DNA of 64,000 bases from Pelosinus propionicus DSM 13327 (lineage in GTDB: Bacteria; Bacillota; Negativicutes; DSM-13327): NCBI RefSeq assembly GCF_900114615.1, contig NZ_FOTS01000013.1:62001-126000 (forward strand), written 5' to 3'. Numbering within the stretch: position 1 is the first letter of the stretch; each line of letters opens with the position of its first letter. The position numbers and the translations under genes are program-made. Positions 31,326-54,499 of this stretch are shown here, piece after piece. The notes under the pieces were generated by a model. It made no database searches, was not told the DNA's origin, and saw only the letters and a program-made list of their open reading frames with translations.

Positions 31326-31447
31326 TTTTTTATAGGCTCTCACCAAAGTTATGATGATTACATATATTATAATACATATTTGGCAACACCTTATTGCTAG
31401 ATGCAAAGTTTGCTGGTCATCAATTAAGTACAAAGGAGTTGATATTT

Positions 31448-32296: not shown

Positions 32297-32302
32297 GATG
32301 TG

Positions 32303-33400
32303 ATGGAGAAAGTTGCATTGATTACAGGAATAACAGGTCAAGATGGTGCCTATCTGGCTGAATTTCTACTAAAGAAAGGCTATATTGTTCATGGTATAAA
32401 AAGGCGTAGCTCTTTAATTAATACGGCACGAATTAATCATCTCTATCAGGATTTTCACGAACAACAAGTTAAATTCTTTTTGCACCACGGTGATATGACA
32501 GATGCTACAAATTTAATTCGGATTATACAGGAAGTACAGCCCGATGAAATATATAATTTAGCAGCACAAAGTCATGTGCAGGTCTCATTTGATACGCCGG
32601 AATATACTGCAAATGCAGATGCCTTAGGAACCTTAAGATTATTAGAAGCATTACGCATATTAAACATGACGGACAAAGTTAAGTTTTATCAAGCGGCTAC
32701 TAGTGAATTGTTTGGAAAAGTTCAAGAAACCCCTCAGAAAGAAACGACTCCTTTTTATCCCCGTAGTCCTTATGCTGCAGCTAAATTATATGCTTATTGG
32801 ATTGTTGTTAATTATCGAGAAGCGTATAACATGTTTGCTTGTAATGGAATTTTATTTAATCATGAATCACCAATCCGTGGTGAGACGTTTGTTACTCGCA
32901 AAATTACGAGAGCGGTAGCCCATCATAAACTGGGAGTAGGCAATATTTTATATTTAGGAAACTTAGATGCAAAAAGAGATTGGGGATTTGCTGGTGATTA
33001 TGTAAAGGCTATGTGGCTTATGCTGCAGCAAGAAAAACCGGAGGATTATATCATTGCTACAGGCGAAACCCATTCTGTACGTGAATTTGTAGAATTAGCT
33101 TTTCATAATATTGGAACAAGTATTGAGTGGCAAGGAACAGGAGTTGCAGAAAAGGGGATCAATCGTGCTACCGGTCAAACTATAATCGAAGTAGATGCAC
33201 GCTATTTTCGGCCAACAGAGGTGGATCTTCTGCTTGGTGATGCGACAAAAGCAAGAGAAAAGCTCAAATGGCAGCCGGAAGTTAGCTTAAATGAAATGGT
33301 CGAACAAATGGTATGTCAGGATATTAAACTGGTTGAACGTGAATTATTATGTACAGAGCATGGATATAGTGCCGAAAGTATACGGAGTGGTAAAGGGTAG
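32303..33400 (+). CDS. gmd: GDP-mannose 4,6-dehydratase
   Basis: 365-aa SDR enzyme making GDP-4-keto-6-deoxy-mannose. Nucleotide motif [15 protein letters not shown], catalytic Thr in [11 protein letters not shown], YxxxK as [10 protein letters not shown], and [16 protein letters not shown], a GMD hallmark. GTG 32300 is an alternative start one codon earlier. The fucose synthase gene follows. Confidence 0.95.
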
Positions 33401-33439
33401 AAAAGGGGTTCCGTAGGATATCAATGATGGAGGCGGATT

Positions 33440-34381
33440 ATGGATCAGCATGCCAAAGTGTATATCGCTGGACATCGAGGGTTAGTAGGTTCTGCTATTT
33501 TGCGTAAACTGACCCGCGATTTTGATACCGAAATTATATGTCGTACCAGGCAAGAGTTAGATTTGTGTAATCAGGCTGAAGTCATGAAATTCTTTGCAGA
33601 AAAAAAGCCTGAATATGTATTTCTGGCAGCTGCAAAGGTAGGAGGAATACTTGAGAACCAAACCTATCCTGCTAAATTTATATATGAAAATGTTATGATG
33701 CAATCAAACCTAATTCATGCTGCCTACAAGTACAATGTGAAGAAATTACTGTTTTTAGGAAGCTCTTGTATTTATCCTAAATTAGCCCTTCAGCCAATAA
33801 AAGAAGAGTATTTGTTGACTGGTGAATTAGAGCCTACAAATGCTGCTTATGCAGTTGCTAAAATTACGGGGATACAGATGTGTCAAGCGTATAATAGCCA
33901 ATATGGGACAAAATTTATATCGATCATGCCGACCAATTTATATGGCCCTAATGATAATTTTGATTTAACATCATCTCATGTTCTGCCTGCTCTGATACGA
34001 AAATTTCATGAAGCAAAAATCAATCATTTGCCAAATGTTGAAATATGGGGTACTGGCAAGCCACGGCGGGAATTTTTGCATGTAGATGATCTGGCGGATG
34101 CCTGCTTATTTCTAATGGATATCTATGAAGGTAATCAACCAATCAATGTTGGAGTTGGCAAAGATATTTCGATACAAGAACTAGCTGCATTGGTTGGAGG
34201 AGTTATAGGATATTCAGGAGAGATTCTCTATAACTGCGCCATGCCGGATGGAACCCCTCGTAAATTACTGGATATAGCGAAGATCACAGACCTTGGCTGG
34301 CAGTCAAAAATAAAATTAGAAGATGGTATAGCCAATACCTATCAATGGTATCTGAACAGCCTAGCGAACCACAGAACCTAG
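33440..34381 (+). CDS. fcl: GDP-L-fucose synthase
   Basis: 313-aa epimerase/reductase (WcaG family) that turns the gmd product into GDP-L-fucose. YIAGHRGLVGSAILR is the NADP-binding start; GSSCIYPK and YAVAKITGIQMCQAYN hold the Ser/Tyr/Lys triad. AGGAGG-like site (GGAGGCGG) upstream. With gmd and the GT11 enzyme at 43423 it defines a fucosylation branch. Confidence 0.95.
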   Translation: MDQHAKVYIAGHRGLVGSAILRKLTRDFDTEIICRTRQELDLCNQAEVMKFFAEKKPEYVFLAAAKVGGILENQTYPAKFIYENVMMQSNLIHAAYKYNVKKLLFLGSSCIYPKLALQPIKEEYLLTGELEPTNAAYAVAKITGIQMCQAYNSQYGTKFISIMPTNLYGPNDNFDLTSSHVLPALIRKFHEAKINHLPNVEIWGTGKPRREFLHVDDLADACLFLMDIYEGNQPINVGVGKDISIQELAALVGGVIGYSGEILYNCAMPDGTPRKLLDIAKITDLGWQSKIKLEDGIANTYQWYLNSLANHRT

Positions 34382-35423: not shown

Positions 35424-35484
35424 TCGCTATGGCGAGTAGTGGAGTGCAACGATTTTCATACGGCAAAGAGAGGTGCTTAAGATA

Positions 35485-38310
35485 GTGAATTCAGAAGTAA
35501 CACTTTTATATGATGATGAAAAGCAAGCAGGAAATATAAAAATTATAGTAAAGAATATTCCTGATATTACGATTGTAGATGAAAATAAAAGTGAAACCGT
35601 TAATTTTTCGGAATGTGGAAAACAAATCAGATGGCTGAGTACTAAAATATCACAAGATTTTCCGAATGAAAAGTACATTGGCCTGATCTTTAAAACATCA
35701 AGAGAATTGATTTTACACTGGCTTGCAGTGCTGGATGCTGGCAAGGAACCATTGATTATTCAATATCCAACTAAAAAGCAAAGTCTAATTTACTGGCATA
35801 ATTCAATTAGTCATACGATTTCTTCTGCGAACATTCAAGGAGTCATATGCGAAGAAGTTATTCGATCTTTAGAAATTGAAAAAAGAGTAAAGACCATTTT
35901 TTTTGATGGTCGGATTTTAGAAGCAGATACTAGCTGTGATGAAATTATCAATGGTGCCTTTATTCAACTCTCATCAGGAACCACTGGTATGAGAAAAGGC
36001 ATGAGATTTACTTTTCAACAACTTTATCAGTATATTCAGAGTTACAATCACATCATGGAAATGAAGAAAAGCGATTGTATTGTCTCTTGGCTGCCTTTAT
36101 ATCACGATATGGGATTTATTGCATGTTTCAGCATGCCTATTTTTTTAGGAATTAAGCTGGTTTTAATTGATCCGATTGTTTGGGTTAGTAATCGGTCCAT
36201 TCTATTTAAGACCATTGCCCATTATGGAGGTACACTTTGCTTTATGCCTAACTTCGGCTTTGAGGTCATGGCAAAAGAGCCGATAGCTGCTCCTATGACA
36301 ACAATGCGACGCTGGGTTTCAGGAGGAGAGCCTGTTAAGAAAGAAACAATGGTTCGATTTTCTCAGCATACCAATACAAAATTAGAATCTATATCTGTCG
36401 TTTACGGCTTTGCGGAAACAATTATGGCAATATCGCAAAGCAATGGTATTAAGACATATGTAAAAGAGGGCAGAGAAGTTACAAGCTGTGGAAGGATTAT
36501 TCCAGGAACGCTTGTTAAAATCATTGGCAATGAAGTGTACGCCAAAAGCGGTTATTCGATACATGCGTATTTGGATCAGATTCCAATAGTTGACAGCGAA
36601 GGATATATCCCTACTGGCGATATTGGATTTATTGAAGGCAACGAACTATTCATTGAAGGACGTAAACATGATGTCATGATTCAAGCAGGGCAAAAGTTTA
36701 TGTTAAATGAAATGGATACGATATTAGCTCATGTTGTTCCGGAATGGGAAGGACGTGGTGTATGTTTAGCAAAAGATGACGCGAGAACGGGTACACAAAC
36801 CCTTCTTATTTTATTAGAGAGAGAGGATATAACCGATACACGGCAATATAAAGAGCTGGCAAATCGCTTAAGCCACGCATTGCCAATGGGCAATTTTGAA
36901 TTTTATTTCGTGCCAGAAGAATTTGTTACAAAAACTTCATCAGGCAAGATCAACCGCAAGAAAACCTTGGAAGATTATATAAAGTATCAAAACTGGCAAG
37001 AGCGAGATAGAAAGAATGGTATGATTGCGGATATTAAATATGAAATCATGCGGTATTTTCATGGTTCATCCTTTGATACTCCTATTTCAAATACATTAGA
37101 TTCTTTGGGGATTATTATTTTAAACTCGATAGCCCAAGAACAGCATATCAGCATCTCAGGAGATATGAGCTTGCAGGATGTTATTCGAGCATGCAGTGAA
37201 AAAAATAAAGAAAACAATGGAAATATAAAAAAGGAAGTTATTTCTATTGTTTCTATTATGGATTATTCTGTGGTCGGAAAATTCACACCTCAAGATATGG
37301 AACGGATTGAAAGAGAAGTTGGAATGCCGGTAGAATTTGAACATGTTTGTATGCCGCCAGCACCGATTATTTATCAGGATTTAATATTTTATGATTATTT
37401 TATGTGTCGTGATTTTGATGAGCGTTATTCCTATTATTTGAATTGTGTACAAAAAATAAAAGAAGCCAGCGTATTGCTTTTAGACGATCATGGAGAATTT
37501 GCAGTTGGCGGTGCAGGTGCTTTTCCTGTTATGAGCAAAAAATTCAGCCGAAACCCATTAAGCGATTACGTGGTGTATCGGTGGCAGAAATATTCAAGAA
37601 ATCACCAATTGCTCCCAGTTGGGAATGTTGTTCACGGTCTTAGCCTTTCAGCAGAAATGCATTTAAAAGCAATACAACAAATCTCTTCTCACTTAGGAGT
37701 TCCGATTTTTCGAGCAGCAGTGTGTCAAAACTATCGCCATCTTACTAGTGACTGGGAATACAAAGACTATAAATATAGTTTTCAAATCATTCATGACAAA
37801 GTTCCGAATTATTCCAATCATGAGCAGCTGGTTACATCCTTATGTGAGTTTATAAAAAAACATAAGGATCATTTAAAGCGTAAGACAGTAAGCAGTGTAA
37901 ATCGAATTTTAGATTATAGTGATTTGTGGCACTTTTGCTCCTATTGTGTGAATCCTATCTTTTTAGATCAAGTAATCGATTCTTTTCAGAGCTTTATCAT
38001 TCATGGGCTGCCTGGAAGTTTGTATTACCTGCAGAAAAAGTTAGGTGAAAAAGGCAAAAAATACTGCTTTGTTCCTGCCTTAAATCCTAATGGCGGATTT
38101 GATCCTGGTTTAGAAACATCTTATGAATGCGTCTTGCAAACTGGCAGTTGGGGAGCGCCTAACACTAGACTGCCTGTTATTTCCTTAATGGCAGCAGGTG
38201 GCCCATTAGTAGCAAATTTACCAGCTAACTTTATCGTTGATCCAAATGTATTGGGAAATTCCTTCATTGCAATGCCAGAAGCCATAGCTGCATATTTAAA
38301 GAGATCTTAA
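35485..38310 (+). CDS. AMP-ligase / acyl-carrier domain / unknown C-terminal domain protein
   Basis: About 941 aa (GTG 35485 after AGAGAGG; GTG 35473 also possible). An acyl-AMP ligase (about 80-510) carries the P-loop QLSSGTTGMRKGM, YGFAET, GDIGF and the C-terminal lysine motif SSGKINRKK. An ACP/PCP-like domain (about 515-590) follows with TLDSLGII, Ser540 being the likely phosphopantetheine site. Residues about 600-941 are an unrecognised domain rich in His, Tyr and Trp. It may activate an acyl or amino acid and pass it to a sugar or other acceptor. It is encoded in a glycan island, so a glycan acylation role is inferred. Confidence 0.75.
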   Translation: MNSEVTLLYDDEKQAGNIKIIVKNIPDITIVDENKSETVNFSECGKQIRWLSTKISQDFPNEKYIGLIFKTSRELILHWLAVLDAGKEPLIIQYPTKKQSLIYWHNSISHTISSANIQGVICEEVIRSLEIEKRVKTIFFDGRILEADTSCDEIINGAFIQLSSGTTGMRKGMRFTFQQLYQYIQSYNHIMEMKKSDCIVSWLPLYHDMGFIACFSMPIFLGIKLVLIDPIVWVSNRSILFKTIAHYGGTLCFMPNFGFEVMAKEPIAAPMTTMRRWVSGGEPVKKETMVRFSQHTNTKLESISVVYGFAETIMAISQSNGIKTYVKEGREVTSCGRIIPGTLVKIIGNEVYAKSGYSIHAYLDQIPIVDSEGYIPTGDIGFIEGNELFIEGRKHDVMIQAGQKFMLNEMDTILAHVVPEWEGRGVCLAKDDARTGTQTLLILLEREDITDTRQYKELANRLSHALPMGNFEFYFVPEEFVTKTSSGKINRKKTLEDYIKYQNWQERDRKNGMIADIKYEIMRYFHGSSFDTPISNTLDSLGIIILNSIAQEQHISISGDMSLQDVIRACSEKNKENNGNIKKEVISIVSIMDYSVVGKFTPQDMERIEREVGMPVEFEHVCMPPAPIIYQDLIFYDYFMCRDFDERYSYYLNCVQKIKEASVLLLDDHGEFAVGGAGAFPVMSKKFSRNPLSDYVVYRWQKYSRNHQLLPVGNVVHGLSLSAEMHLKAIQQISSHLGVPIFRAAVCQNYRHLTSDWEYKDYKYSFQIIHDKVPNYSNHEQLVTSLCEFIKKHKDHLKRKTVSSVNRILDYSDLWHFCSYCVNPIFLDQVIDSFQSFIIHGLPGSLYYLQKKLGEKGKKYCFVPALNPNGGFDPGLETSYECVLQTGSWGAPNTRLPVISLMAAGGPLVANLPANFIVDPNVLGNSFIAMPEAIAAYLKRS

Positions 38311-39339: not shown

Positions 39340-41292
39340 TTAATTCATTCTATATTCAATGCTAGTTGAAGTTTTCTCAATTAGATCAAGGATATAATTA
39401 TTCAAATAACCAAGATAAATTTCATTTGCTTGCGGCGGTAAAGAAAAATGTTTCATCATTTCTAATGCGAGAGATTTCCAAGAAGCAATCGAATAGTTGC
39501 TAGGATGTATAATATGATAACAAATAGGAGTTGTTACTTTTTTTACTGACAGTTTAGCCAATAACGGAATTAAGGGCATCCAGTAATCCCACCATGGCAA
39601 GCCAATACAGAATTTTGCAGGGGGATATTGCTGAATAAAACTTCGGTCAAAGAAGAAATAGTCAAATCCTTTATAAAAAATGCCATTGCTAATTTTATCA
39701 AAAGATTCGACATCAAGGCGCGGGCCAAAAACCAGTGAGTCTGTTGCTTCTATATTCATGAATGCAGGAAGATCTTTTTTGAAAAAATGAATATCGGAGT
39801 TGACGATACCGCATATCCGATTCTCCCTTGCAGCAAAATACGCTAAAATATCATCGATATAGATATAAGGTTTACCATAGGTCTCTCTGGCATCTCTTTT
39901 AGCTGCAACAAATTCAATATTAGGGAAATAAGGTTGGATTGTATTTATTTCAGCCTGAGAGTTTATCGATACCACATTGAAACCAGAATGCATCCAGCTT
40001 TCGATTGCTTTTTTTTGTGTGGAAATATCTTTACCTGGTGCCAGAGAAGTAGCAATGGTTATTTTATCATGATGAAATGAGCTATGAGAGAACGTGGTGT
40101 TTTGTACCGGAGAACGATAGATTTCTCTAGCTGCCATGATGAACTGACAAAATTGCCAATTAAAATTAGTAATTTTCGCATTATATTCTAATTTAGATTC
40201 GTTTTCCTTTAAAAGATCAGGTCCAGGGTTCGTTGTTGGCAGTAATAATGATATTTTATTTGCTAAATCCTCTGCATCTGTTCTTGCAAAGTAGGTGCCA
40301 TAACCTTCTTCTTCATGTATGGGCAGATCGGATAAAATAATGTCTTTTCCTAATAATTGGCATTCTTGTATAATCAGACTCAAGCCCTCGAATAAGGAAG
40401 GCTGCACTACGAATAAACTGCGGCGCATAAGTTGCATTTGATCATGACGGGGAATCAGGCCAAGAATATGAATATGCTCTTTGAGATTAAGAACCTGAAT
40501 GTACTCCTGTAATTTATTAAAATAATTAGGGTTGCGATAATCGGTTGTTGATCCGGTGCATACTAGGTGAATTTCTTGACCTCTACTTTGCAAAATAGCT
40601 AACGCTTTAAATAAGACGGGATGATTTTTATGCATCCAGAATTGATTGGAGCATAATATAAATCGATCAGGTATTTTATATTTTGCTTGGATTTGATAAG
40701 GATCGCCTGTATACCATTCCTTTTTTGGATGAACAGGAAATGGTAATACCAGGGGAGTGGCGGGCGAGGATGGATATAGTTGCAAAAAATCTTTTTTTGC
40801 ATCATTGCTGGTGAACAATACCACAGGAGAGTTGTCGGCAATTTTTTGAAATAAAGTATTCCGTTTTGTAATTTCAGTAGCCGAAAAAAGTTGAGGCAGA
40901 TAATGATGCTGAAAGTCTGGTATCCATGGTATTGCAGGATAGCCAGGATACAATTCTGAGTTTATTGGTAGCATTAAATCAATATTATGGAAGAGGTGGT
41001 CTGTAGAGACATAATGGATAATTGGATGGTTAATTAAGTCTTTTGCTGTATCTATATTTGTACCTACATAAATTAAACCGTCGATTAATGGAAAAAGATG
41101 CTCATGGAGAGGGATTAAATCATACAAAGTCAAACATTCTAAATTTTCATCATTCATCACGAGAAAAAGTTGTGGGCGATTCTCTTCAGATAGCTGCGCA
41201 ACAGAGCTAATAATTGATTCTACTACCGTAACACCTGCATACCAGTATTTGCTTCCTATCATAGGTAGGCCTATGCGTATATTTTTAAGCAT
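39340..41292 (-). CDS. GT4-type glycosyltransferase fused to a C-terminal NSD-motif domain
   Basis: 650 aa. Residues 1-about 380 are a GT-B fold transferase: FILCSNQFWMHKNHPVLFKAL and PSLFEGLSLIIQE (donor-binding ExxxxxxxE type). From about residue 409 a second domain starts ITIATSLAPGKD and contains CGIVNSDIHFFK, a possible DxD-like site. That domain occurs alone in the protein at 47831. Two linked transferase activities are likely. It is co-directional with, and 16 bases upstream of, the second dehydratase. Confidence 0.8.
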   Translation of the reverse strand: MLKNIRIGLPMIGSKYWYAGVTVVESIISSVAQLSEENRPQLFLVMNDENLECLTLYDLIPLHEHLFPLIDGLIYVGTNIDTAKDLINHPIIHYVSTDHLFHNIDLMLPINSELYPGYPAIPWIPDFQHHYLPQLFSATEITKRNTLFQKIADNSPVVLFTSNDAKKDFLQLYPSSPATPLVLPFPVHPKKEWYTGDPYQIQAKYKIPDRFILCSNQFWMHKNHPVLFKALAILQSRGQEIHLVCTGSTTDYRNPNYFNKLQEYIQVLNLKEHIHILGLIPRHDQMQLMRRSLFVVQPSLFEGLSLIIQECQLLGKDIILSDLPIHEEEGYGTYFARTDAEDLANKISLLLPTTNPGPDLLKENESKLEYNAKITNFNWQFCQFIMAAREIYRSPVQNTTFSHSSFHHDKITIATSLAPGKDISTQKKAIESWMHSGFNVVSINSQAEINTIQPYFPNIEFVAAKRDARETYGKPYIYIDDILAYFAARENRICGIVNSDIHFFKKDLPAFMNIEATDSLVFGPRLDVESFDKISNGIFYKGFDYFFFDRSFIQQYPPAKFCIGLPWWDYWMPLIPLLAKLSVKKVTTPICYHIIHPSNYSIASWKSLALEMMKHFSLPPQANEIYLGYLNNYILDLIEKTSTSIEYRMN

Positions 41293-43422: not shown

Positions 43423-44238
43423 ATGGTTATAGTACGGCTGTTAGGAGGTTTAGGCAATCAGCTTTTTCAGTATGCAATGGCTCGTAGAATTGCATATGAA
43501 CATCAAGTTCCTATCAAACTGGATGTATCTAGTTACGATATTTATAAATTGCGAACTTACCGATTGCATCATTTTAATATTATGGAGAATTTCGCTTCAG
43601 TAAAGGAAATAAATGATTTGATAGAAGCAGGAAAAATCGCTAAAGAACGTCAATTTTGTTTTGATGAACAAATGATGCATTTACCTGGAGACATATATTT
43701 AGATGGTTACTGGCAGTGCGAGAAATATTTTGAAAATGTTAGTAACTTGATTCGTCATGAATTCCAGCTAAAAGCAGCGCTAAGTGATCAGGACGAAGAA
43801 TTAATAAAAAAAATTAGGAATGTGCAGTCTATTAGTATACATGTACGCAGAGGAGATTATGTTTTTGATGAGTATAACCACCATATTCATGGTACGTGTT
43901 CATTGGAATATTATCATTTTTGTATAGAACAATTAGCAGCTGCTTTTGACAAGCCTAATTTTTTTGTATTTTCGGATGATAAACAATGGGTACAAGATCA
44001 TATTAAAGTGAAATATCCCATAACATTTGTAACCCACAACGACATTGACAAAGAGTATGCTGATTTATTTTTAATGAGTAATTGTAAGCATCATATTATC
44101 GCGAATAGTTCCTTTAGTTGGTGGGCAGCCTGGCTATGCACCTATGATAAAAAAAAGATTCTTTCACCTGCTAAATGGTTTCATAGTCACGATTATGATG
44201 GCAGAGATATTATTCCCAAAGGATGGTATCAGGTCTAA
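43423..44238 (+). CDS. GT11 alpha-1,2-fucosyltransferase
   Basis: 271 aa. RLLGGLGNQLFQYAMARR is the family opening and SIHVRRGDYV the GDP-fucose-binding motif; SNCKHHIIANSSFSWWAAWL is the last signature (SSFSWWAAWL). The substrate donor is supplied by gmd and fcl at 32303-34381. AGGAGG before the start. It sits between two paralogous GT2 genes. Confidence 0.94.
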   Translation: MVIVRLLGGLGNQLFQYAMARRIAYEHQVPIKLDVSSYDIYKLRTYRLHHFNIMENFASVKEINDLIEAGKIAKERQFCFDEQMMHLPGDIYLDGYWQCEKYFENVSNLIRHEFQLKAALSDQDEELIKKIRNVQSISIHVRRGDYVFDEYNHHIHGTCSLEYYHFCIEQLAAAFDKPNFFVFSDDKQWVQDHIKVKYPITFVTHNDIDKEYADLFLMSNCKHHIIANSSFSWWAAWLCTYDKKKILSPAKWFHSHDYDGRDIIPKGWYQV

Positions 44239-45257: not shown

Positions 45258-45437
45258 GGGTGATAATTTTATGTTGCAGGGGAAAATCTTGTTTGCCATT
45301 TTACATAGTATGGGAACTATTCTCAATAACGGCTGCTTATGTCACCATTTTTTAGAATTCTGAATAACATAAACTAAGATGATAGATTTCAGAAATCGTT
45401 ATTTTGGATGATGTAAGAGAAGTTAAGGATGGTGCTT

Positions 45438-46778
45438 ATGAAAATTTGCATGATTGGAGTAGGCTATGTCGGCCTGGTAACAGGCACATGTTTTGCTGAT
45501 AAAGGGAATATAGTATGCTGTATTGATACAGATCAAGAAAAAATCAAGGCATTAAACTCTGGGATAATTCCTATCTATGAACCAGGGTTAAAGGACATGA
45601 TTTTAGACAATAAGCAGAATGGTCGATTAGAATTTAGTAGTGACTTACGCAATAGTATTGCGGATTCTTTATTGTGTTTTATTACGGTAGGTACGCCGCC
45701 TAATAAAGATGGATCAGCAGATTTGTCATATGTATTAAATGCTGCTCGTGAAATTGGTAAATGTATGGATAACTATTTGATTGTAGTTACTAAATCTACC
45801 GTTCCTGTCGGTACTACAGACGCGGTTAGAGATATGATTAATAGTGAATTAAAGGCTAGAGGCAAGGAGAAGTTAACATTTGATGTAGCTTCTAATCCTG
45901 AGTTTCTCAAAGAAGGAACTGCTGTTGCTGACTTTATGTGTCCTGATCGTATTGTGATTGGATGTGATAAGGGACCAATAGCTGTATGTATGAGAGAACT
46001 TTATAAACCTTTTGCTCATAGTGAGAATAAAATAATAACAATGGATATTAAGTCGGCTGAAATTACAAAATATGCGGCTAATGCTATGTTGGCAACTCGC
46101 ATTAGCTTTATGAATGAAATGGCTCAATTGTGTGATAAATTGGGCGGGGATATTGAGAATATTCGCAGGGGTATCGGCACAGATATGCGTATAGGCAGTC
46201 AGTTTTTATGCGCTGGTGTAGGTTATGGCGGTTCTTGCTTTCCTAAGGATGTTAATGAATTAATTCATACTGGTCAAAAAAATGGATTTGAGATGGCGAT
46301 AGCCAGTGCAGTGCATAAAGTCAATGAAGGGCAAAAAAAATATTTTGTTGATATGATTAAGAAGAAGTTAAGTGATAATCTTCAAGGCAAAAAGATTGCT
46401 GTATGGGGATTGGCGTTTAAAGCCCAAACGGATGACATGCGAGAAGCCCCTTCTTTGATGATTATTGAAGAACTTCTTAAAATGGGGGGGCAGATTGCTG
46501 TATACGATCCGGAAGCTATGGAGCAGGCAAAACAGGCTTTAAAGAAGGAGAATCATAAGATAGAGTATGCCAATGACATGATGAGAGCGGTTGCTCATGC
46601 GGATGTGTTAGTCTTGATCACTGATTGGCAGGAGTTTAGAGAAGTTGATTTAGATCAGTTGAAGAAAGTTATGAGGCAGCCTGTTATTTTTGATGGACGC
46701 AACCAATTTGATCCTTTAGAAATGGTAAAGCATGGTTTTCGATATTATTGCATAGGGAGAAATTGCTATGGCAAATAA
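45438..46778 (+). CDS. ugd: UDP-glucose 6-dehydrogenase
   Basis: 446 aa, makes UDP-glucuronate. N-terminal [19 protein letters not shown], catalytic cysteine in GGSCFPKDV, and [10 protein letters not shown]. The start is ATG 45438; an ATG at 45429 overlaps the likely ribosome site AAGG (45425-45428). It overlaps uxs by 11 bases, so the UDP-xylose branch is tightly coupled. Confidence 0.95.
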
Positions 46779-47709
46779 GCGAATCTTGGTCACAGGTGGT
46801 GCAGGTTTTATTGGTTCCCATTTATGTAAAAAACTTTTAGATAAGGGGCATGAAGTAATTTGCCTAGACAATTACTTTACAGGTTTCAAAGCAAATATTG
46901 AGGGCTTATTAAATCATCCGCTTTTTAGGATCATTCAGCAAGATATAATCGATCCATTAGATCTTGAGGTCGATCAGATCTATAACTTTGCTTGTCCTGC
47001 TAGTCCCCTGCATTATCAGCACGATCCGATAAAGACGCTGAAAACCAGTATACAGGGAACGATTAATATATTAGATTTAGCACAGAAAAATCAAGCCAGA
47101 GTACTTCATGCGTCAACGTCAGAAATATATGGAGACCCCCTTGTCCACCCCCAGAAGGAGGAATATTGGGGTAATGTAAATCCTATTGGAGTGCGAAGCT
47201 GCTATGATGAAGGTAAACGCTGTGCTGAAACTTTATGCTATGACTATTATCGTGCTCATGATTTAGATATTAAAGTAATACGCATATTTAATACGTATGG
47301 CCCTAATATGCATATCGATGATGGGCGGGTTGTAAGTAATTTTATTGTTCAGGCTTTAAGAGGTGAAGAAATTACTATTTATGGAGATGGAAAACAGACT
47401 AGAGCATTTTGCTATATTGATGATCTAATTGATGGGATTCTTAGAATGATGGAAACTAAGAAAGAATCTTTTGCTCCGGTAAATTTAGGAAATCCAGAAG
47501 CATTTTCCATTCTTGAACTAGCTGAAAAAGTAATAAGACTTACTGGTTCAGCATCGAAATTGATTTTTAAATCACTTCCTGAGGATGATCCTCGGCAGCG
47601 TTGTCCGGATATTAAATTAGCGGAAGCAAAAATTAATTGGAAACCTCGAATACGTTTAGACGATGGTCTGCAAGAGACGATAGCTTATTTTAAAAAGGTG
47701 TTAGGATAA
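46768..47709 (+). CDS. uxs: UDP-glucuronate decarboxylase (UDP-xylose synthase)
   Basis: 313-aa [44 protein letters not shown] and [11 protein letters not shown] are the UXS signatures, with catalytic Tyr and Lys in YDEGK. Its start overlaps the ugd end, so UDP-glucose is turned to UDP-xylose by the pair. Confidence 0.93.
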
Positions 47710-47795: not shown

Positions 47796-47830
47796 CCTAG
47801 AGTTATTCAATGAAAGACGGGAGGAAGGGT

Positions 47831-48661
47831 ATGAGTCAGCCTATTACGATTGCTACATCCTTAGCGCCAGGAAAAGATGTAAAGATTCAAAAAGAGGCAG
47901 TTAACAGTTGGCATAGACTGGGGTTTGTTGTAATATCTATCAATTGTGCAGAGGAAATAGCTGTTTTAAAATCATCTTTTCCAGAAATTGAATTTATTGA
48001 AGTTGCCAGAGATGCTAGACAACAATTTGGCAAGCCCTATATTTATTTTGACGACATATTAGCTTGTTTGTGGGAACGAGAATCTTCTTTATGTGGAATT
48101 GTTAATTCTGATATTTGCTTCTTGAAGCATGAGTTTTATTCTTTCCTGACGAAGGAGGGGCGTGATTCATTTATTTACGGATCTCGAATTGATATAAGTA
48201 CATTTAATCATGTTAATGGCAGAGTAATTCAAGATGGTTTTGACTATTTCTTTTTTGATCGAAAAGTGATTGCTGCATATCCTGCCTCGCAATTTTGTAT
48301 TGGTATGCCATGTTGGGATTATTGGGCGGTGCTATCTCCTTTATTCTTAGGAGTAGCCGTTAAGAAAGTCATGACAGCTCATGCATATCATATAATACAT
48401 AAAGTGAATTGGAACAATACAATTTCAAGCAGATTATTTCATGAACTGTTGCATCATATCAAACCGCTTTCGGCTGTTGCTGCTTCTGCCAACTATATGT
48501 TGAGTTTTATAGATCGTTATTCTCTAAAATTGAATTTGCAAAGCGAGGGAGGAAGCAGAAAACAACTGCAGAATTTGCTTCCTCAAATCAAAAAGGTACT
48601 TACAAAGGGAGATATTCAAGGGGAAATTATTGATGAACTATTATTTCTAAGAAGAAAGTAA
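47831..48661 (+). CDS. Stand-alone NSD-motif domain protein, paralogue of the 39340-41292 C-terminal domain
   Basis: 276 aa from ATG 47831 (GGGAGGAAG upstream). The same signatures as the fused domain occur in the same order: ITIATSLAPGKD, GIVNSDICF, QFCIGMPCWDYW, AYHIIHKVN. A putative glycosyltransferase; the family is not recognised. No signal or membrane segment. Confidence 0.75.
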   Translation: MSQPITIATSLAPGKDVKIQKEAVNSWHRLGFVVISINCAEEIAVLKSSFPEIEFIEVARDARQQFGKPYIYFDDILACLWERESSLCGIVNSDICFLKHEFYSFLTKEGRDSFIYGSRIDISTFNHVNGRVIQDGFDYFFFDRKVIAAYPASQFCIGMPCWDYWAVLSPLFLGVAVKKVMTAHAYHIIHKVNWNNTISSRLFHELLHHIKPLSAVAASANYMLSFIDRYSLKLNLQSEGGSRKQLQNLLPQIKKVLTKGDIQGEIIDELLFLRRK

Positions 48662-48727
48662 TATCATTTTTTACCAGCTCGAAGAATAAATTAAATTAGG
48701 TTGGAATAAGACAATGAGGTGGTTGGT

Positions 48728-49651
48728 ATGAAGGATTATATATGTACTACTCCCATAGCATTGATTATCTTTAATAGGCCAAATCTAACGCAGCAGGTGT
48801 TGGCAGAGATCCGCAAGGTTAGACCTGTGAAGTTACTAGTCATTGCAGATGCTCCTAGGACAGATCAAAGGGATGATATAGAAAAATGTGCTTTAGTACG
48901 GAATCTTATTGATGGGATTGATTGGGAGTGTGAGATTATAAAAAATTACTCTCCCGTTCATTTAGGCTGTGGCAAGCGTCCCGCTACTGGAATGGATTGG
49001 GTTTTTAGTTTGGTAGAAGAAGCAATCATATTAGAAGATGATTGTTTGCCACATCCGACATTCTTTCCGTATTGCCAGGAATTATTAAAAAAGTACTCTG
49101 ATGACCAACGTATTATGAGTATTTCGGGTAATAATTTTCAGTTTGGCAGACGACGAACAGCGGATAGTTATTATTTTTCCCGCTATACCCAGACCTGTGG
49201 TTGGGCAACCTGGAAAAGAGCATGGCGGCATTATGATTTTGACATGAAGCTCTGGCCTGAAGTTCGCGATGGGAAATGGTTATTTGATATCTTTGGTAGT
49301 ATGCAAGTGGCAAATCGCAGTGATCAGCCCCAATTTGAAGTGATTGGGGGAGTGCGAGTTGCCCAATATTGGCAGCGTGTCTTTGAGGCTGCCTATCAGA
49401 AAAAAATAGATGCTTGGGATTTTCAGTTTGCATTTTCCTGTTTTTTACAAAGTGGTTTGCATATCTTGCCGAATACGAATTTAGTATCCAATATTGGATA
49501 TGGCCCTGAAGGAACTCATACGAAAGATAAAGGAAGCTGCCTTGCTAATCTGCCAGTAGAAGAGATGGAATTTCCCTTAAAGCATCCGCGCTTTATCATT
49601 CGTGATGCCTGGGCAGATACTTTTTTACAGGCAAATAACTTTTCCTGCTGA
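48728..49651 (+). CDS. GT-A-type glycosyltransferase, HlpA-like
   Basis: 307 aa. PIALIIFNRPNLTQQVLAEI, a nucleotide-diphospho-sugar transferase start, then AIILEDDCLPHPTFFPY with the acidic metal site, and CGWATWKRAWRHYD. The nearest known type is the HlpA family of putative transferases. ATG 48728 after ATGAGGTGG. The donor is unknown. Confidence 0.8.
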   Translation: MKDYICTTPIALIIFNRPNLTQQVLAEIRKVRPVKLLVIADAPRTDQRDDIEKCALVRNLIDGIDWECEIIKNYSPVHLGCGKRPATGMDWVFSLVEEAIILEDDCLPHPTFFPYCQELLKKYSDDQRIMSISGNNFQFGRRRTADSYYFSRYTQTCGWATWKRAWRHYDFDMKLWPEVRDGKWLFDIFGSMQVANRSDQPQFEVIGGVRVAQYWQRVFEAAYQKKIDAWDFQFAFSCFLQSGLHILPNTNLVSNIGYGPEGTHTKDKGSCLANLPVEEMEFPLKHPRFIIRDAWADTFLQANNFSC

Positions 49652-49676
49652 TTGTTTGTATAGGGGGAGGAAAATA

Positions 49677-52600
49677 ATGAAGGTAGTACATATTAACCTT
49701 TTTGATAAACATGGAGGGGCAGCAAGAATTTCCTGGACTCTTGTGAACAACCTTAGCCAACGAGGGCATGAGGCTGTTACTTTTGCTCACCACACAGTAT
49801 CTTCTCAAGATGACCGAGTGATTCAGATTCCCTTTTTAAAAACTAGATGGCAAAAAGAACTGTTAGAACAGCAGCAGCAGCAAGGTTTATTTGATCTTTA
49901 TTCTGCAGCCTTGCTAAGGGTATTAAATCATCCTTTGTTTGAACAGGCTGATTTGGTTCATTTACATTGTATTAATGGAAATTATTTTTCTTTTTTGTTA
50001 TTGCCCTTTTTGGCATCTAAGCCTTTAGTCTGGACATTGCATGATCCTCTTGCCTTTACTGCCAAGTGCCTGTCTACGGATGTTTGTAATGGCTGGAAAG
50101 AAGATTGGTGTGCAGTATGTCCCCAAGATATTGAAAATAAAAACAAATTGCAGCGTGAGTTGGTACAGCTTATTAAAAGTTTAATGTATAAAGTATCTAA
50201 TTTTACCGTAGTATGCCCTTCTGCATGGTTAGGCAGGCAAGCAAAAGAAAGCCTGCTGCAAGAGAAAGAAATTCGCCTGATTTATAATGGTGTTGACATA
50301 AGTACATTTCAACCTGGCAGCAAAGAGGAATTGCGGTTTAAATTAGGTTTGCCGGCTTCTCAAAAAATAATCTTATTTGCAGCTCATGGTGGTTTGAATA
50401 ACCCCTATAAGGGAGGGGAGTTCTTACGCGAAGCATTATTAGAAATCTATAAACGGTATCCCGATATTGTTTTACTTACGATAGGGTCATACAGTACATC
50501 GACATTAGAAGACTTTCCGATCCGTCACATCGATGTTCCTTTTATTGATGACCACAAGCAGTTGGCACAGTATTATGCAGCTGTTGATCTTTATGTTTCT
50601 CCTACCCTAGCCGAGGTGTTTGGCCTTACTATTTGTGAAGCGATGGCATCAGGTACGCCAGTTGTTGCCTTTGCTGTAGGAGGAATCCCGGAGCTGATAA
50701 CTCATAAAGAAAATGGTTATTTGGCGGAACGGGGAAATGTAGGTGAATTGATTCAAGGCATTCTTTATTTCCTGGAAAATGAAGAGCTTAGACAATGTTC
50801 TGGTAGAGCTGCTCGACTCCGAGTAGTAGAAAAATTTAGCGAGAAGCGTATGGTAGATGAGTATGTAGCCTTATATGAAGAAGTATTGAAAAAAAGTAAG
50901 TCCATTAAAAGTGATACGAGTTCAAATTCTGATGATGAGGAGATCGCTCAACTAGTAGAAAGAGAAAAAAGTAAAGGATGGAGCTTTGTATGGAAAGCAT
51001 TTCATCATAAATATTCTCATTTTAAAATGGAAGAAAGCAGGGAAAAATTGCAGTTTGTAGATCGGTTTTGTGGCCACTGCCTCAAAAAAATCAATCCTCT
51101 TTTGGAAAGTCATGCGTTGTGGGATGTGATTACTTTGTGGCAAAGTTGTAGATCCATACCAGACAGCAGCAATCATTTACAGGATAAAGAAATGCAAGCT
51201 TTTTATGAATTTATTAAGACGCTGCGCAAATGTTTAACGATTTACTTCAGTAAAGTACCTCAAGGCAGATACGTTCAGCTCAAGGAGGATCAGCACCAAA
51301 AGCTTTACATGCTTTGGCAGCAAATCTTTTTAAATGACTTCTTATCGCTGCCAATAGAAGAAAATGAGAGCTTTGCATTTACGGATTCATCTGCGAGTTT
51401 TAAAGAATTCCTTTTAATCAGTATGTATCGGCCAATGGATGCGGAACAATTTAACATTAATGTTGTTCAATTATGGAAGGAAGAAGAAATTCCTGAATAT
51501 TATAAGGTGTTGATTACTTTTTGGCTGCTGCATGTCCCTTATTACAATATTGAAGGGAAACATCGAGATAAAGTTTTAAAATATGCTTCTGATCTATTTT
51601 CAGCGCATATCCCAACAAGTTCGTTTATTCCTTTGGTAAATGAGTGTACTAAAGTTCTTTGGCGTATTTCTTATAGTGGTGGTAATAATCTGCCTGCGTT
51701 GGCTCGATTTGGTGATTTTATTGCTGCTCATATGGAGCAGTATGTGTCTCGAAATAAAAAGTTAACTGCCAGTTTTAAGAAAAATAGAAAAAAGAAAAAA
51801 ATACGCATCGGCTATATTTCACGATTTTTTTACGGGCAGGCTGTTAGCTACTATATGGTAAATCGTGTGATTCATCATAATAAAGATAATTTTGAAGTAT
51901 ATACATTTGCTTTGGGAAGAGGTTATGATGAAATCACCAGTCTTTTTGAAAAATATAGTGACCGTTTTAAACAATTTAAACAGATAGATGCGATTGAAGA
52001 TGTATATTGTATCATGCAAAGTATCATAGATAGTAAGCTTGATATTTTAATTTATACAGATATAGGTATGGATCCTTTGACGTATATGCTGGCTGGGCTC
52101 CGATTAGTACCGATTCAGTGTGCATTAGTAGGCCATGGAACAACCACTGGTCTGCCGACGATTGATTATTATATCAGCGGTGATTTTGAACCGTCAGATG
52201 CTAGTTCTCATTACCGAGAGAAATTAGTAAAATTGCCGAACCTGGGAGCTGCGCAATTTCCCCCTCCTTTTACATCGTTTATCCCTGTCACTCGTAAAGA
52301 TTGGAAAATACCTGAAGAGGCTGTAGTTTTTGTTTCTTGTGCAAATGGTATTAAGCATAGTCCGTCGCGGGATCGGTTGTTAGTGGAAATCTTAAAGCGT
52401 GTTCCTAATGCCTGTATACTGCTCAAACCATGTCATTCAACGAATCTAGATAATCAGCTAGGAGAGCGGATCAAGCAGGCTGCCAGAAGTGCTGGAGTTG
52501 AAAGACAGTTGTTTATTGTACCTCCCTTAGGACGGGTTGATGCTTTGCTGGCAATTGCTGATATTCAATTAGACACATATCCTTACGGAGGCTGGACTAC

Positions 52601-52892
52601 ATCTCTGGAGGGATTTTATATGGGCTTGCCGATGGTCACCCAGGAGGGAGATATGGCTAGAAGCAGATGGGGGGCTCATATGCTTCGTGCTCTTGGGATA
52701 CAAGATGGCATAGGAAAGAATGAAGAAGAATATGTGGAGTGGGCCGTGAAATTAGCACAGAATAAAGAACTTAGAGAGCAGATAAAGAAAAAAATAACAG
52801 AGCAGGTAAAAGAGGTTTTGTTTAATGGCTCAGCAGCACAGCCCCACTATGAAAGTGCTTTACTAAAAATTTTTAAAAATCAATTCAAATAA
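49677..52892 (+). CDS. Bifunctional GT4 - GT41 (OGT-like) glycosyltransferase
   Basis: 1071 aa. An N-terminal GT4 enzyme (about 1-415: VHINLFDKHGGAARIS, SPTLAEVFGLTICEAMASG) is followed by an unrecognised helical middle (about 430-700) and a C-terminal GT41 catalytic region (about 705-1070) with IRIGYISRFF, ILIYTDIGMDP, VGHGTTTGLPTIDYY and DTYPYGGWTTSLEGFYMGLP. GT41 enzymes (O-GlcNAc transferase, SPINDLY, HMW1C) glycosylate proteins. The pair suggests successive sugar additions. No TPR repeats are obvious. Confidence 0.88.
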   Translation: MKVVHINLFDKHGGAARISWTLVNNLSQRGHEAVTFAHHTVSSQDDRVIQIPFLKTRWQKELLEQQQQQGLFDLYSAALLRVLNHPLFEQADLVHLHCINGNYFSFLLLPFLASKPLVWTLHDPLAFTAKCLSTDVCNGWKEDWCAVCPQDIENKNKLQRELVQLIKSLMYKVSNFTVVCPSAWLGRQAKESLLQEKEIRLIYNGVDISTFQPGSKEELRFKLGLPASQKIILFAAHGGLNNPYKGGEFLREALLEIYKRYPDIVLLTIGSYSTSTLEDFPIRHIDVPFIDDHKQLAQYYAAVDLYVSPTLAEVFGLTICEAMASGTPVVAFAVGGIPELITHKENGYLAERGNVGELIQGILYFLENEELRQCSGRAARLRVVEKFSEKRMVDEYVALYEEVLKKSKSIKSDTSSNSDDEEIAQLVEREKSKGWSFVWKAFHHKYSHFKMEESREKLQFVDRFCGHCLKKINPLLESHALWDVITLWQSCRSIPDSSNHLQDKEMQAFYEFIKTLRKCLTIYFSKVPQGRYVQLKEDQHQKLYMLWQQIFLNDFLSLPIEENESFAFTDSSASFKEFLLISMYRPMDAEQFNINVVQLWKEEEIPEYYKVLITFWLLHVPYYNIEGKHRDKVLKYASDLFSAHIPTSSFIPLVNECTKVLWRISYSGGNNLPALARFGDFIAAHMEQYVSRNKKLTASFKKNRKKKKIRIGYISRFFYGQAVSYYMVNRVIHHNKDNFEVYTFALGRGYDEITSLFEKYSDRFKQFKQIDAIEDVYCIMQSIIDSKLDILIYTDIGMDPLTYMLAGLRLVPIQCALVGHGTTTGLPTIDYYISGDFEPSDASSHYREKLVKLPNLGAAQFPPPFTSFIPVTRKDWKIPEEAVVFVSCANGIKHSPSRDRLLVEILKRVPNACILLKPCHSTNLDNQLGERIKQAARSAGVERQLFIVPPLGRVDALLAIADIQLDTYPYGGWTTSLEGFYMGLPMVTQEGDMARSRWGAHMLRALGIQDGIGKNEEEYVEWAVKLAQNKELREQIKKKITEQVKEVLFNGSAAQPHYESALLKIFKNQFK

Positions 52893-52994
52893 TGGCACCT
52901 ATTTGAGAGTAGTACATATACTACAGTACAAATAATGGTAAAGTAGATTTTATAAAGTGATCAAAAAAATTTGAACAAAAGGAGGAGAAACATA

Positions 52995-53440: not shown

Positions 53441-54199
53441 TTAGCTTGGAGGACAAATATCTGTACAAGGGCCAATTTGATGAGTGCTGTCGAAAGAGCC
53501 TTTTACAGTAAAAGAAGAGAAGCCATTAGCGATTGCTGCATCAGTTAATTCAAATGGACGAATTCCTTCTACCCACAAGTTCTCGCTTCTCCATAATTTA
53601 TCTATAATTTTTCCTGTAATTGTAATTTGTTGAGGACTGGTGACAACCGCATTAAATTGGGCGACAAGGCAGGAACCGTCAATTCTTGTCAGTTCATTCT
53701 TTAATTGCTGCCCAGTTACAGGGGTGCAATCTGGGAATCGGTAGAAAGTAGTAAAGGTTCTAGTAAAGGTTGGGAGCGGAAGAATGATTGGGTTTGAAGT
53801 GCAATTGCCGCAGATGATTACCAAACCAATTCTAACCGTTACCGTTTGACATCCTTCATCGATTTGTTCATCGGCGCACCATAGGATAACCTGGCAAGTC
53901 TCTCCTACGGTGAGTGTTGGGAAAGTAAAGGTTCCATTGCATTGAACACGGCATGGTCCTACTGGAGGGTAGGCTATGCATCTTGTAAATTCACCGGAAT
54001 TACCGATAAGTACGACTTCTTCTACACAAATGTCATGACATTCACATGTTGGTATTCTGCTTACTGGGGGAGTTGTAGTACCAAAAACAGGTCCGCAGTT
54101 GTTAAAGATACTAAGACAGCTATTGCATGGGCAATTTGGTTCACATTGGCGGGTCAATTCACAAAAATCAGGAATCTCAAAATACTTGCTGTCTATCAT
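53441..54199 (-). CDS. Cysteine-rich protein, possible spore-surface component
   Basis: 252 aa on the minus strand, from ATG 54199 after AGAGGAGG. Not recognised. The N-terminal third has several Cys pairs (TRQCEPNCPCNSC, PTCECHDIC, CRVQCNG), and the middle is Thr/Val-rich beta-like. No signal peptide. The pattern recalls cysteine-rich coat or exosporium proteins of spore formers. It borders the glycan island and the host carries sporulation genes, so a surface role is suggested but not shown. Confidence 0.55.
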   Translation of the reverse strand: MIDSKYFEIPDFCELTRQCEPNCPCNSCLSIFNNCGPVFGTTTPPVSRIPTCECHDICVEEVVLIGNSGEFTRCIAYPPVGPCRVQCNGTFTFPTLTVGETCQVILWCADEQIDEGCQTVTVRIGLVIICGNCTSNPIILPLPTFTRTFTTFYRFPDCTPVTGQQLKNELTRIDGSCLVAQFNAVVTSPQQITITGKIIDKLWRSENLWVEGIRPFELTDAAIANGFSSFTVKGSFDSTHQIGPCTDICPPS

Positions 54200-54352
54200 A
54201 GCAAAAGCCTCCTCTAAAATGTTGGATTTTTGTTGAGTATTTAGTATCTAAAGTAATAGGCATCCCTCCTGAAAAAATAAAGAATACTTATATACTCTTA
54301 ATACATAAGACTTTTATATTCTTAATTCATAATATGTTTTTTCTTCTGAAAG

Positions 54353-54499
54353 GTGCCAGTAAGAAGAAAAAATGTAATATTTTCGAGTGCAGTTGACATC
54401 TTAGTTATTTCGATTCTATTACTTGTTTTTATCTCATGGTATGCATACGAAAGTGTTTTGGGAACTAACATCAATGTTGGAGCGCCAGGATTTTCTTAA
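54353..54499 (+). CDS. Small single-span membrane protein candidate
   Basis: 48 aa, GTG 54353 (possible GAAAGG site overlapping the start). A basic N terminus (MPVRRKN) is followed by one membrane helix (about 12-30). It ends just before a terminator, which supports a real transcription unit; the upstream ribosome site is weak. Confidence 0.4.
   Translation: MPVRRKNVIFSSAVDILVISILLLVFISWYAYESVLGTNINVGAPGFS

Follow-up and report, generated by a model that had tools for sequence, protein, structure and literature searches.

What would one protein do with a GT4 sugar transferase at one end and a GT41 catalytic domain at the other? This question is raised by a gene of Pelosinus propionicus DSM 13327, which lies in the 64,000-nucleotide stretch that was analyzed as a whole (hereafter, the window). 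A sequence-only reading had described its product as a GT4 transferase, a helical middle, and an OGT/SPINDLY-type catalytic region in one polypeptide, which might prime a protein and extend the sugar. The reading frame runs from the ATG at 49677 to the stop codon at 52890-52892, the same limits as in that reading, with no internal stop, and is preceded by a clean ribosome-binding site (GGGGGAGG, 49663-49670). The source assembly has 134 contigs (5.4 Mb). We found full-length orthologues (55-87% identity) in five further Pelosinus genomes and one genome of a sister genus, among them single-contig and draft assemblies; in one more Pelosinus draft the gene was split over two contigs, and one compared Pelosinus genome (G008) did not have it. 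Since full-length orthologues recur, some of them in single-contig assemblies, the fusion is genuine and an assembly artefact is ruled out. Pfam and the AlphaFold model (built from a 20-sequence alignment; mean pLDDT 80.9 for the whole protein and 86.2 for the middle alone) bore out the domain order, with two GT-B domains and an all-helical middle (table 1). This was the only GT41 gene in the source genome, and a search of the open-access literature found no description of such a fusion. The earlier interpretation as a whole stood in part; the second architecture, the X domain, the partner-specific linkage, and the sigma-K-like promoters reported below were absent from it.

Table 1. Features of the fusion gene and its surroundings, in window positions
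Feature	Position	Strand	Basis or remark
Two SDR genes taken to be gmd and fcl, for GDP-6-deoxyhexose supply (GDP-fucose type)	32300..34381	+	Sequence and family knowledge
GT4 fused to X domain (650 aa), another member of the cluster	39340..41292	-	Sequence identity
GT11 fucosyltransferase-type protein	43423..44238	+	Pfam
UDP-glucose dehydrogenase and SDR read as UDP-glucuronate decarboxylase (UDP-GlcA/UDP-Xyl supply)	45429..47709	+	Second assignment inferred
X-domain protein, from the same family as the C-terminal X in architecture B	47810..48661	+	Sequence identity
Putative glycosyltransferase, 310 aa, with weak sub-threshold similarity to GNT-I	48719..49651	+	Directly upstream of the fusion, conserved
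GT4-middle-GT41 fusion protein, 1071 aa	49677..52892	+	Frame, Pfam, AlphaFold
GT4 (GT-B) domain, residues 1-405, E313-x7-E321 motif	49677..50891	+	Pfam, fold, motif alignment
All-helical middle domain, residues about 415-700	50919..51776	+	AlphaFold; no TPR
GT41 catalytic domain, residues about 705-1060	51792..52856	+	Pfam, 20-member alignment
Sigma-K-like motif before the 137-aa gene, CACC...CATATACTA	52896..52923	+	Similar motif at the corresponding position in L066, L069, L070, L106
Conserved small protein, 137 aa	52998..53411	+	Adjoins the fusion in compared architecture-A loci with the Cys-rich gene
Cys-rich protein, 252 aa, adjacent co-occurring partner; candidate acceptor or spore-surface lattice protein	53441..54199	-	Co-occurrence
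Sigma-K-like motif of the Cys-rich gene, CACC...CATATTATG	54328..54355	-	Conserved in all compared loci with the stand-alone gene

The C-terminal domain matched Glyco_transf_41 (PF13844; E 2e-32, 112.6 bits against a cut-off of 25) in two stretches, the best at residues 869-1050. By sequence, its closest solved chains were SPINDLY (E 5e-33) and then OGT; XcOGT and HMW1C/NGT were much weaker. The nucleotide-site residues K893, Y970, T974, and T975 and most of the SCANG-x-K motif were invariant in 20 family members, and the loss of such residues, which the sequence-only reading had named as refuting it, was not observed. The His/Lys pair of OGT/SPINDLY-type catalysis was recovered by half. Its essential lysine corresponds to the invariant K893, with counterparts K665 in SPINDLY, K441 in ApNGT, and K842 in OGT, the last of which we take to be the equivalent of SPINDLY K665. 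This lysine is essential in SPINDLY (K665) and ApNGT (K441) (PMC5303269, PMC9715652). In contrast, the active-site histidine (H498 in OGT, H495 in SPINDLY) is replaced by Gln721 in all 20 members. That histidine has been argued to be probably not the base (PMC9715652), so its replacement alone does not amount to a loss of activity. Compared with the SPINDLY protein O-fucosyltransferase and OGT (PMC9715652), which share the nearest catalytic domain by sequence and the equivalents of Lys, Tyr, and Thr, the fusion also has Ala722 in place of SPINDLY S496, no TPR, another middle, and an extra GT4. With regard to the donor, Y970 aligns with SPINDLY Y744 and T974 with SPINDLY T748. Y744 was proposed to set the size of the donor pocket, the tyrosine being a donor size gate (PMC9715652); because Y970 aligns with it, a donor of glucose or fucose size would be more likely than GlcNAc. 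An NGT model matched as well (E 8e-15, residues 728-1054), but the equivalog cut-off for NGTferase (NF049992) was not reached (54.4 bits against 1000). Since tests for defining features of HMW1C/NGT and of OGT/SPINDLY were negative, the fusion belongs to a distinct GT41 subfamily, neither OGT/SPINDLY nor HMW1C proper, which was encountered here in Negativicutes only.

The helical middle anticipated from the sequence was indeed all-helical in the model, but it is not the TPR region of OGT/SPINDLY, as no TPR family was found in the fusion at E values up to 0.1 in Pfam. Searched alone against solved structures, the middle gave no clear match by sequence or by fold; the HMW1C/NGT domain was missing from these match lists, an absence that does not exclude kinship. 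When the whole model was compared, the alignment with NGT structures took in 542-560 residues, starting at about 444-460 of the model and ending at 1071 (Z 33-34, rmsd 3.8-4.1), and OGT/SPINDLY aligned over fewer residues (about 420-490) with Z up to 38.5. Because the GT-B domain alone accounts for about 367 residues, the overlap with the all-alpha domain of NGT must take in no fewer than some 175-190 residues of the middle. This suggests, but does not prove, that the middle sits in the model where HMW1C/NGT has its all-alpha domain. In AaNGT, reading the acceptor is the work of that domain (PMC10507012), and an Arg/Asp pair (R177/D215) reads the sequon, while in FlmG the acceptor is selected by the N-terminal domain (PMC7591256). 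Because these domains do so, acceptor recognition is, by analogy, the likely role of the middle. No middle domain turned up outside the class Negativicutes when 398 genomes sampled from the phylum were searched.

A survey of 300 genomes of the class, together with BLAST of the fetched loci, revealed two forms of the core made of middle and GT41. Architecture A is GT4-middle-GT41 (1052-1123 aa), and architecture B is middle-GT41-X (about 911-947 aa), with X as a separate short frame in the copy of G122. In a maximum-likelihood tree of the core (root not known), A and B fell on opposite sides of one branch (support 98/97); because they separate in this way, a single origin for each would be the simplest reading of the sequences. 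The GT41 core is the constant part, and the GT4 domain varied more. In the Pelosinus protein, both GT4 matches were above the curated cut-offs (PF13439, residues 13-209, E 9e-14; PF00534, residues 216-380, E 7e-28), and the EX7E motif of the C-terminal Rossmann domain was present in the window and in close relatives. It was altered in more distant fusions (the second copy of G054, G015, G051, and partly G011), and the GT4 domain was barely recognized in one case (G051, L080). Two active sites are therefore not a universal property. These changes and the lack of GT4 in architecture B would fit a GT41 core that is the working enzyme, with GT4 as a mere accessory or a decaying scaffold; the intact EX7E motif and GT4 fold in Pelosinus argue against this, and we consider it unlikely. 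GT4 activity would be expected in Pelosinus, not in all relatives. The second fusion copy of G054 (L071:10415-13690) kept intact GT41 residues beside the altered GT4 motif, and G001 encodes a stand-alone GT4 (L016:1492-2721, 409 aa) that has 55% identity with the fusion's GT4 domain and lies near a ugd gene.

The X domain of architecture B had no Pfam match and no convincing PDB match. The free X-domain protein of the window shares 35-46% identity with the X of architecture B and 47% with the C-terminal portion of the GT4-X protein. Across genomes, X occurred fused to GT41, to GT4, or to tandem GT4, and also alone. Since the family is also encoded in the cluster of the window, both free and GT4-fused, X probably acts in the same pathway. 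It is perhaps a third transferase there, and possibly an undescribed transferase family.

The two architectures were found with different neighbors. The Cys-rich protein adjoins architecture A in Pelosinus, G001, G011, G031, and G054, and the FGLNEIKNEI-repeat protein adjoins architecture B. The Cys-rich family was present in 12 of the 300 genomes, namely 11 of 13 with architecture A against 1 of 287 others; the repeat protein was present in 9 genomes, namely 8 of 9 with architecture B against 1 of 291 others (Fisher P values of 2.5e-17 and 5e-14, respectively, which ignore phylogeny and are descriptive). The Pelosinus genome without the fusion was also without the Cys-rich partner. No convincing solved relative of either family was found by sequence. 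At L074:3-1949, L081:7109-9337, and L072:9999-11966 (minus strand), Asn-rich FGLNEIKNEI-repeat proteins with a conserved C-terminal domain were encoded directly upstream of architecture B. G015 and G051, which have architecture A but no Cys-rich protein, encode RTX-like proteins near the fusion together with type I secretion genes, and in G015 (L073, L108) a TPS/MBG/YDG adhesin was also beside it. The last arrangement is that of HMW1C/HMW1 (PMC3983070), where a GT41 gene stands beside the gene of a large surface protein of this TPS/YDG kind. In contrast, the Pelosinus neighbor is Cys-rich with a sporulation-type promoter motif, and a GT4 or X domain is fused to the enzyme. The linkage between architecture and neighbor yields concrete candidate enzyme-acceptor pairs.

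Could the sugar be N-linked? Sequons (NXS/T) in the Cys-rich protein of the window were few, at chance level, and not conserved. In three repeat proteins of architecture B they exceeded the shuffles (29 against 18.4, 17 against 9.9, and 8 against 3.5), and in others not clearly. Because of this difference, N-linkage appears unsupported for the system of the window and possible for architecture B. Of the proposal that the Cys-rich neighbor is an acceptor, co-occurrence supports that this protein is a linked partner; its sequons were neither enriched nor conserved. A bacterial N-glycosyltransferase acting on sequons in the manner of HMW1C/NGT overlaps with our main reading, which leaves the linkage open. 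The NGT model match, the NGT structures that cover the greater part of the core when the whole model is compared, and the two larger sequon counts in architecture B point to it, but the low NGTferase score (about 54 bits), the closer sequence relationship with SPINDLY/OGT, and the chance-level sequons of the window argue otherwise, and we regard it as somewhat unlikely. The coiled-coil protein encoded at 31394, which the sequence-only reading had also named as a possible acceptor, contained no sequons, and no specific link with it was found; this candidate was rejected.

With regard to the time of expression, a motif CAC-N15-16-CATANTAT, which we take to resemble the sigma-K consensus, was found at a similar position upstream of the stand-alone Cys-rich gene in every compared locus, covering three families. 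Window-wide, the strict motif was near chance (5 found against 3.45 expected), so only its conserved position counts. One such motif (31341-31369, plus strand) precedes the coiled-coil gene at the start of the cluster. No conserved sporulation promoter was found before the fusion gene itself, and scans for sigma-E and sigma-F/G-type motifs in the window were at or below chance. Genomic contexts also bear on the spore surface. In G006, a multicopper oxidase carries a second Cys-rich domain at its C-terminus (L104:5029-7518, minus strand), and enzymes of this type include the spore-coat laccase CotA. In G002, the Cys-rich gene was near a collagen-like gene, and the source genome contained 484 matches to a collagen-like G-X-T pattern against 0 for the reversed pattern. 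In other spore formers, Cys-rich exosporium proteins are encoded with glycosyltransferase and collagen-like genes (PMC7333573). The CsxA/ExsY-type clusters described there resemble the present locus in gene context, with a gene for a Cys-rich spore-layer protein beside glycosyltransferase genes, whereas the Cys-rich family studied here matches no solved chain.

Alternatively, growing cells might provide the acceptor, either flagellin or some other surface protein that they secrete. FlmG of Caulobacter is a modular cytoplasmic flagellin glycosyltransferase whose N-terminal region picks the acceptor (PMC7591256); the secretion and RTX-like genes beside the relatives in G015 and G051, and the position of the fusion as the sole GT41 of its genome, fit the same picture. 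The sugar of FlmG is pseudaminic acid, and its abstract mentions no GT4 fusion. Against this reading, the flagellin genes of Pelosinus are located on a different contig and the window showed no flagellar gene, so that flagellin was rejected as a linked acceptor and no link to flagella was found, while the genes linked to the fusion carry sporulation-type promoter motifs. An acceptor of growing cells is, in our view, quite improbable.

The surrounding cluster is rich in sugar genes. We take its two SDR genes to be gmd and fcl from their sequence and from family knowledge, and the GT11 protein could itself consume GDP-fucose. Between them lies a gene (35473-38310, plus strand) for a protein of 945 aa, whose N-terminal half resembles acyl-AMP ligases and whose long C-terminal part had no family assignment. 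The many glycosyltransferase and nucleotide-sugar genes, like the glutamine in place of the OGT/SPINDLY histidine, would also be expected if the fusion had lost the protein specificity of GT41 and made a polysaccharide or glycolipid of the spore or cell envelope. Nevertheless, no gene for a lipid-carrier transferase or flippase was noticed beside the fusion, the solved GT41 relatives found here act on proteins, the partner proteins are tracked by the architectures, and one context (G015) is the HMW1 adhesin arrangement. An envelope polysaccharide or glycolipid as the product is thus hardly probable.

The domain fusion, the intact sites, the architecture-specific partner linkage, and the sigma-K-like promoter motifs were computed directly. 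The best-supported reading, at about even odds, is that the fusion belongs to a distinct GT41 subfamily and works as a soluble protein glycosyltransferase in the cytoplasm, which decorates a spore-surface protein by priming with GT41 and extending with GT4. Protein catalysis, the order of the steps, the donor, the linkage, and the acceptor are what we infer in the following scheme. Late in sporulation, the helical middle and GT41 would together grip the acceptor polypeptide, a spore-surface protein, and attach the first sugar, which Y970 indicates may be a small hexose (of glucose or fucose size, not GlcNAc), and the N-terminal GT4 would put one or more further sugars onto it. The cluster would provide GDP-6-deoxyhexose and UDP-GlcA/UDP-Xyl, and the 310-aa glycosyltransferase, the X-domain protein, and GT11 would complete the glycan. 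As acceptor, the Cys-rich neighbor would be most likely, or else a partner from its spore layer, for example the collagen-like G-X-T proteins.

The two-step part of the sequence-only reading finds its precedent in Actinobacillus pleuropneumoniae, where NGT (GT41) and the alpha-6-glucosyltransferase AGT are a proven two-protein system that primes and then extends (PMC5303269). As there, a GT41 would prime the protein in the cytoplasm here and a second transferase would extend the sugar, and in both cases a helical domain stands before GT41. In contrast, two proteins do there what one polypeptide would do here, the sequence similarity is low, and the gene neighborhood is another. More tentatively, and with some doubt, we propose that the priming of a spore-surface protein and the next stage of its glycan are both the work of one polypeptide, from a GT41 subfamily that was met here only in Negativicutes and whose constant core is fused to GT4 or X, each pairing dedicated to its own linked surface protein. 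Cytoplasmic protein glycosylation of the GT41 type is already known for adhesins, flagellin, and eukaryotic regulatory proteins. If our proposal is true, a dedicated, partner-linked version in which a single enzyme primes and extends would take such glycosylation into a new setting, the spore surface, and would be a compact tool for protein glycosylation.

Weaker relatives also exist within the class. Family f11 (e.g., G068:C13) and G025:C1 contained many GT41-like genes of about 500 aa, together with frames of up to about 2000 aa, some of which had several GT41 matches; all of them matched the catalytic part of the query only.
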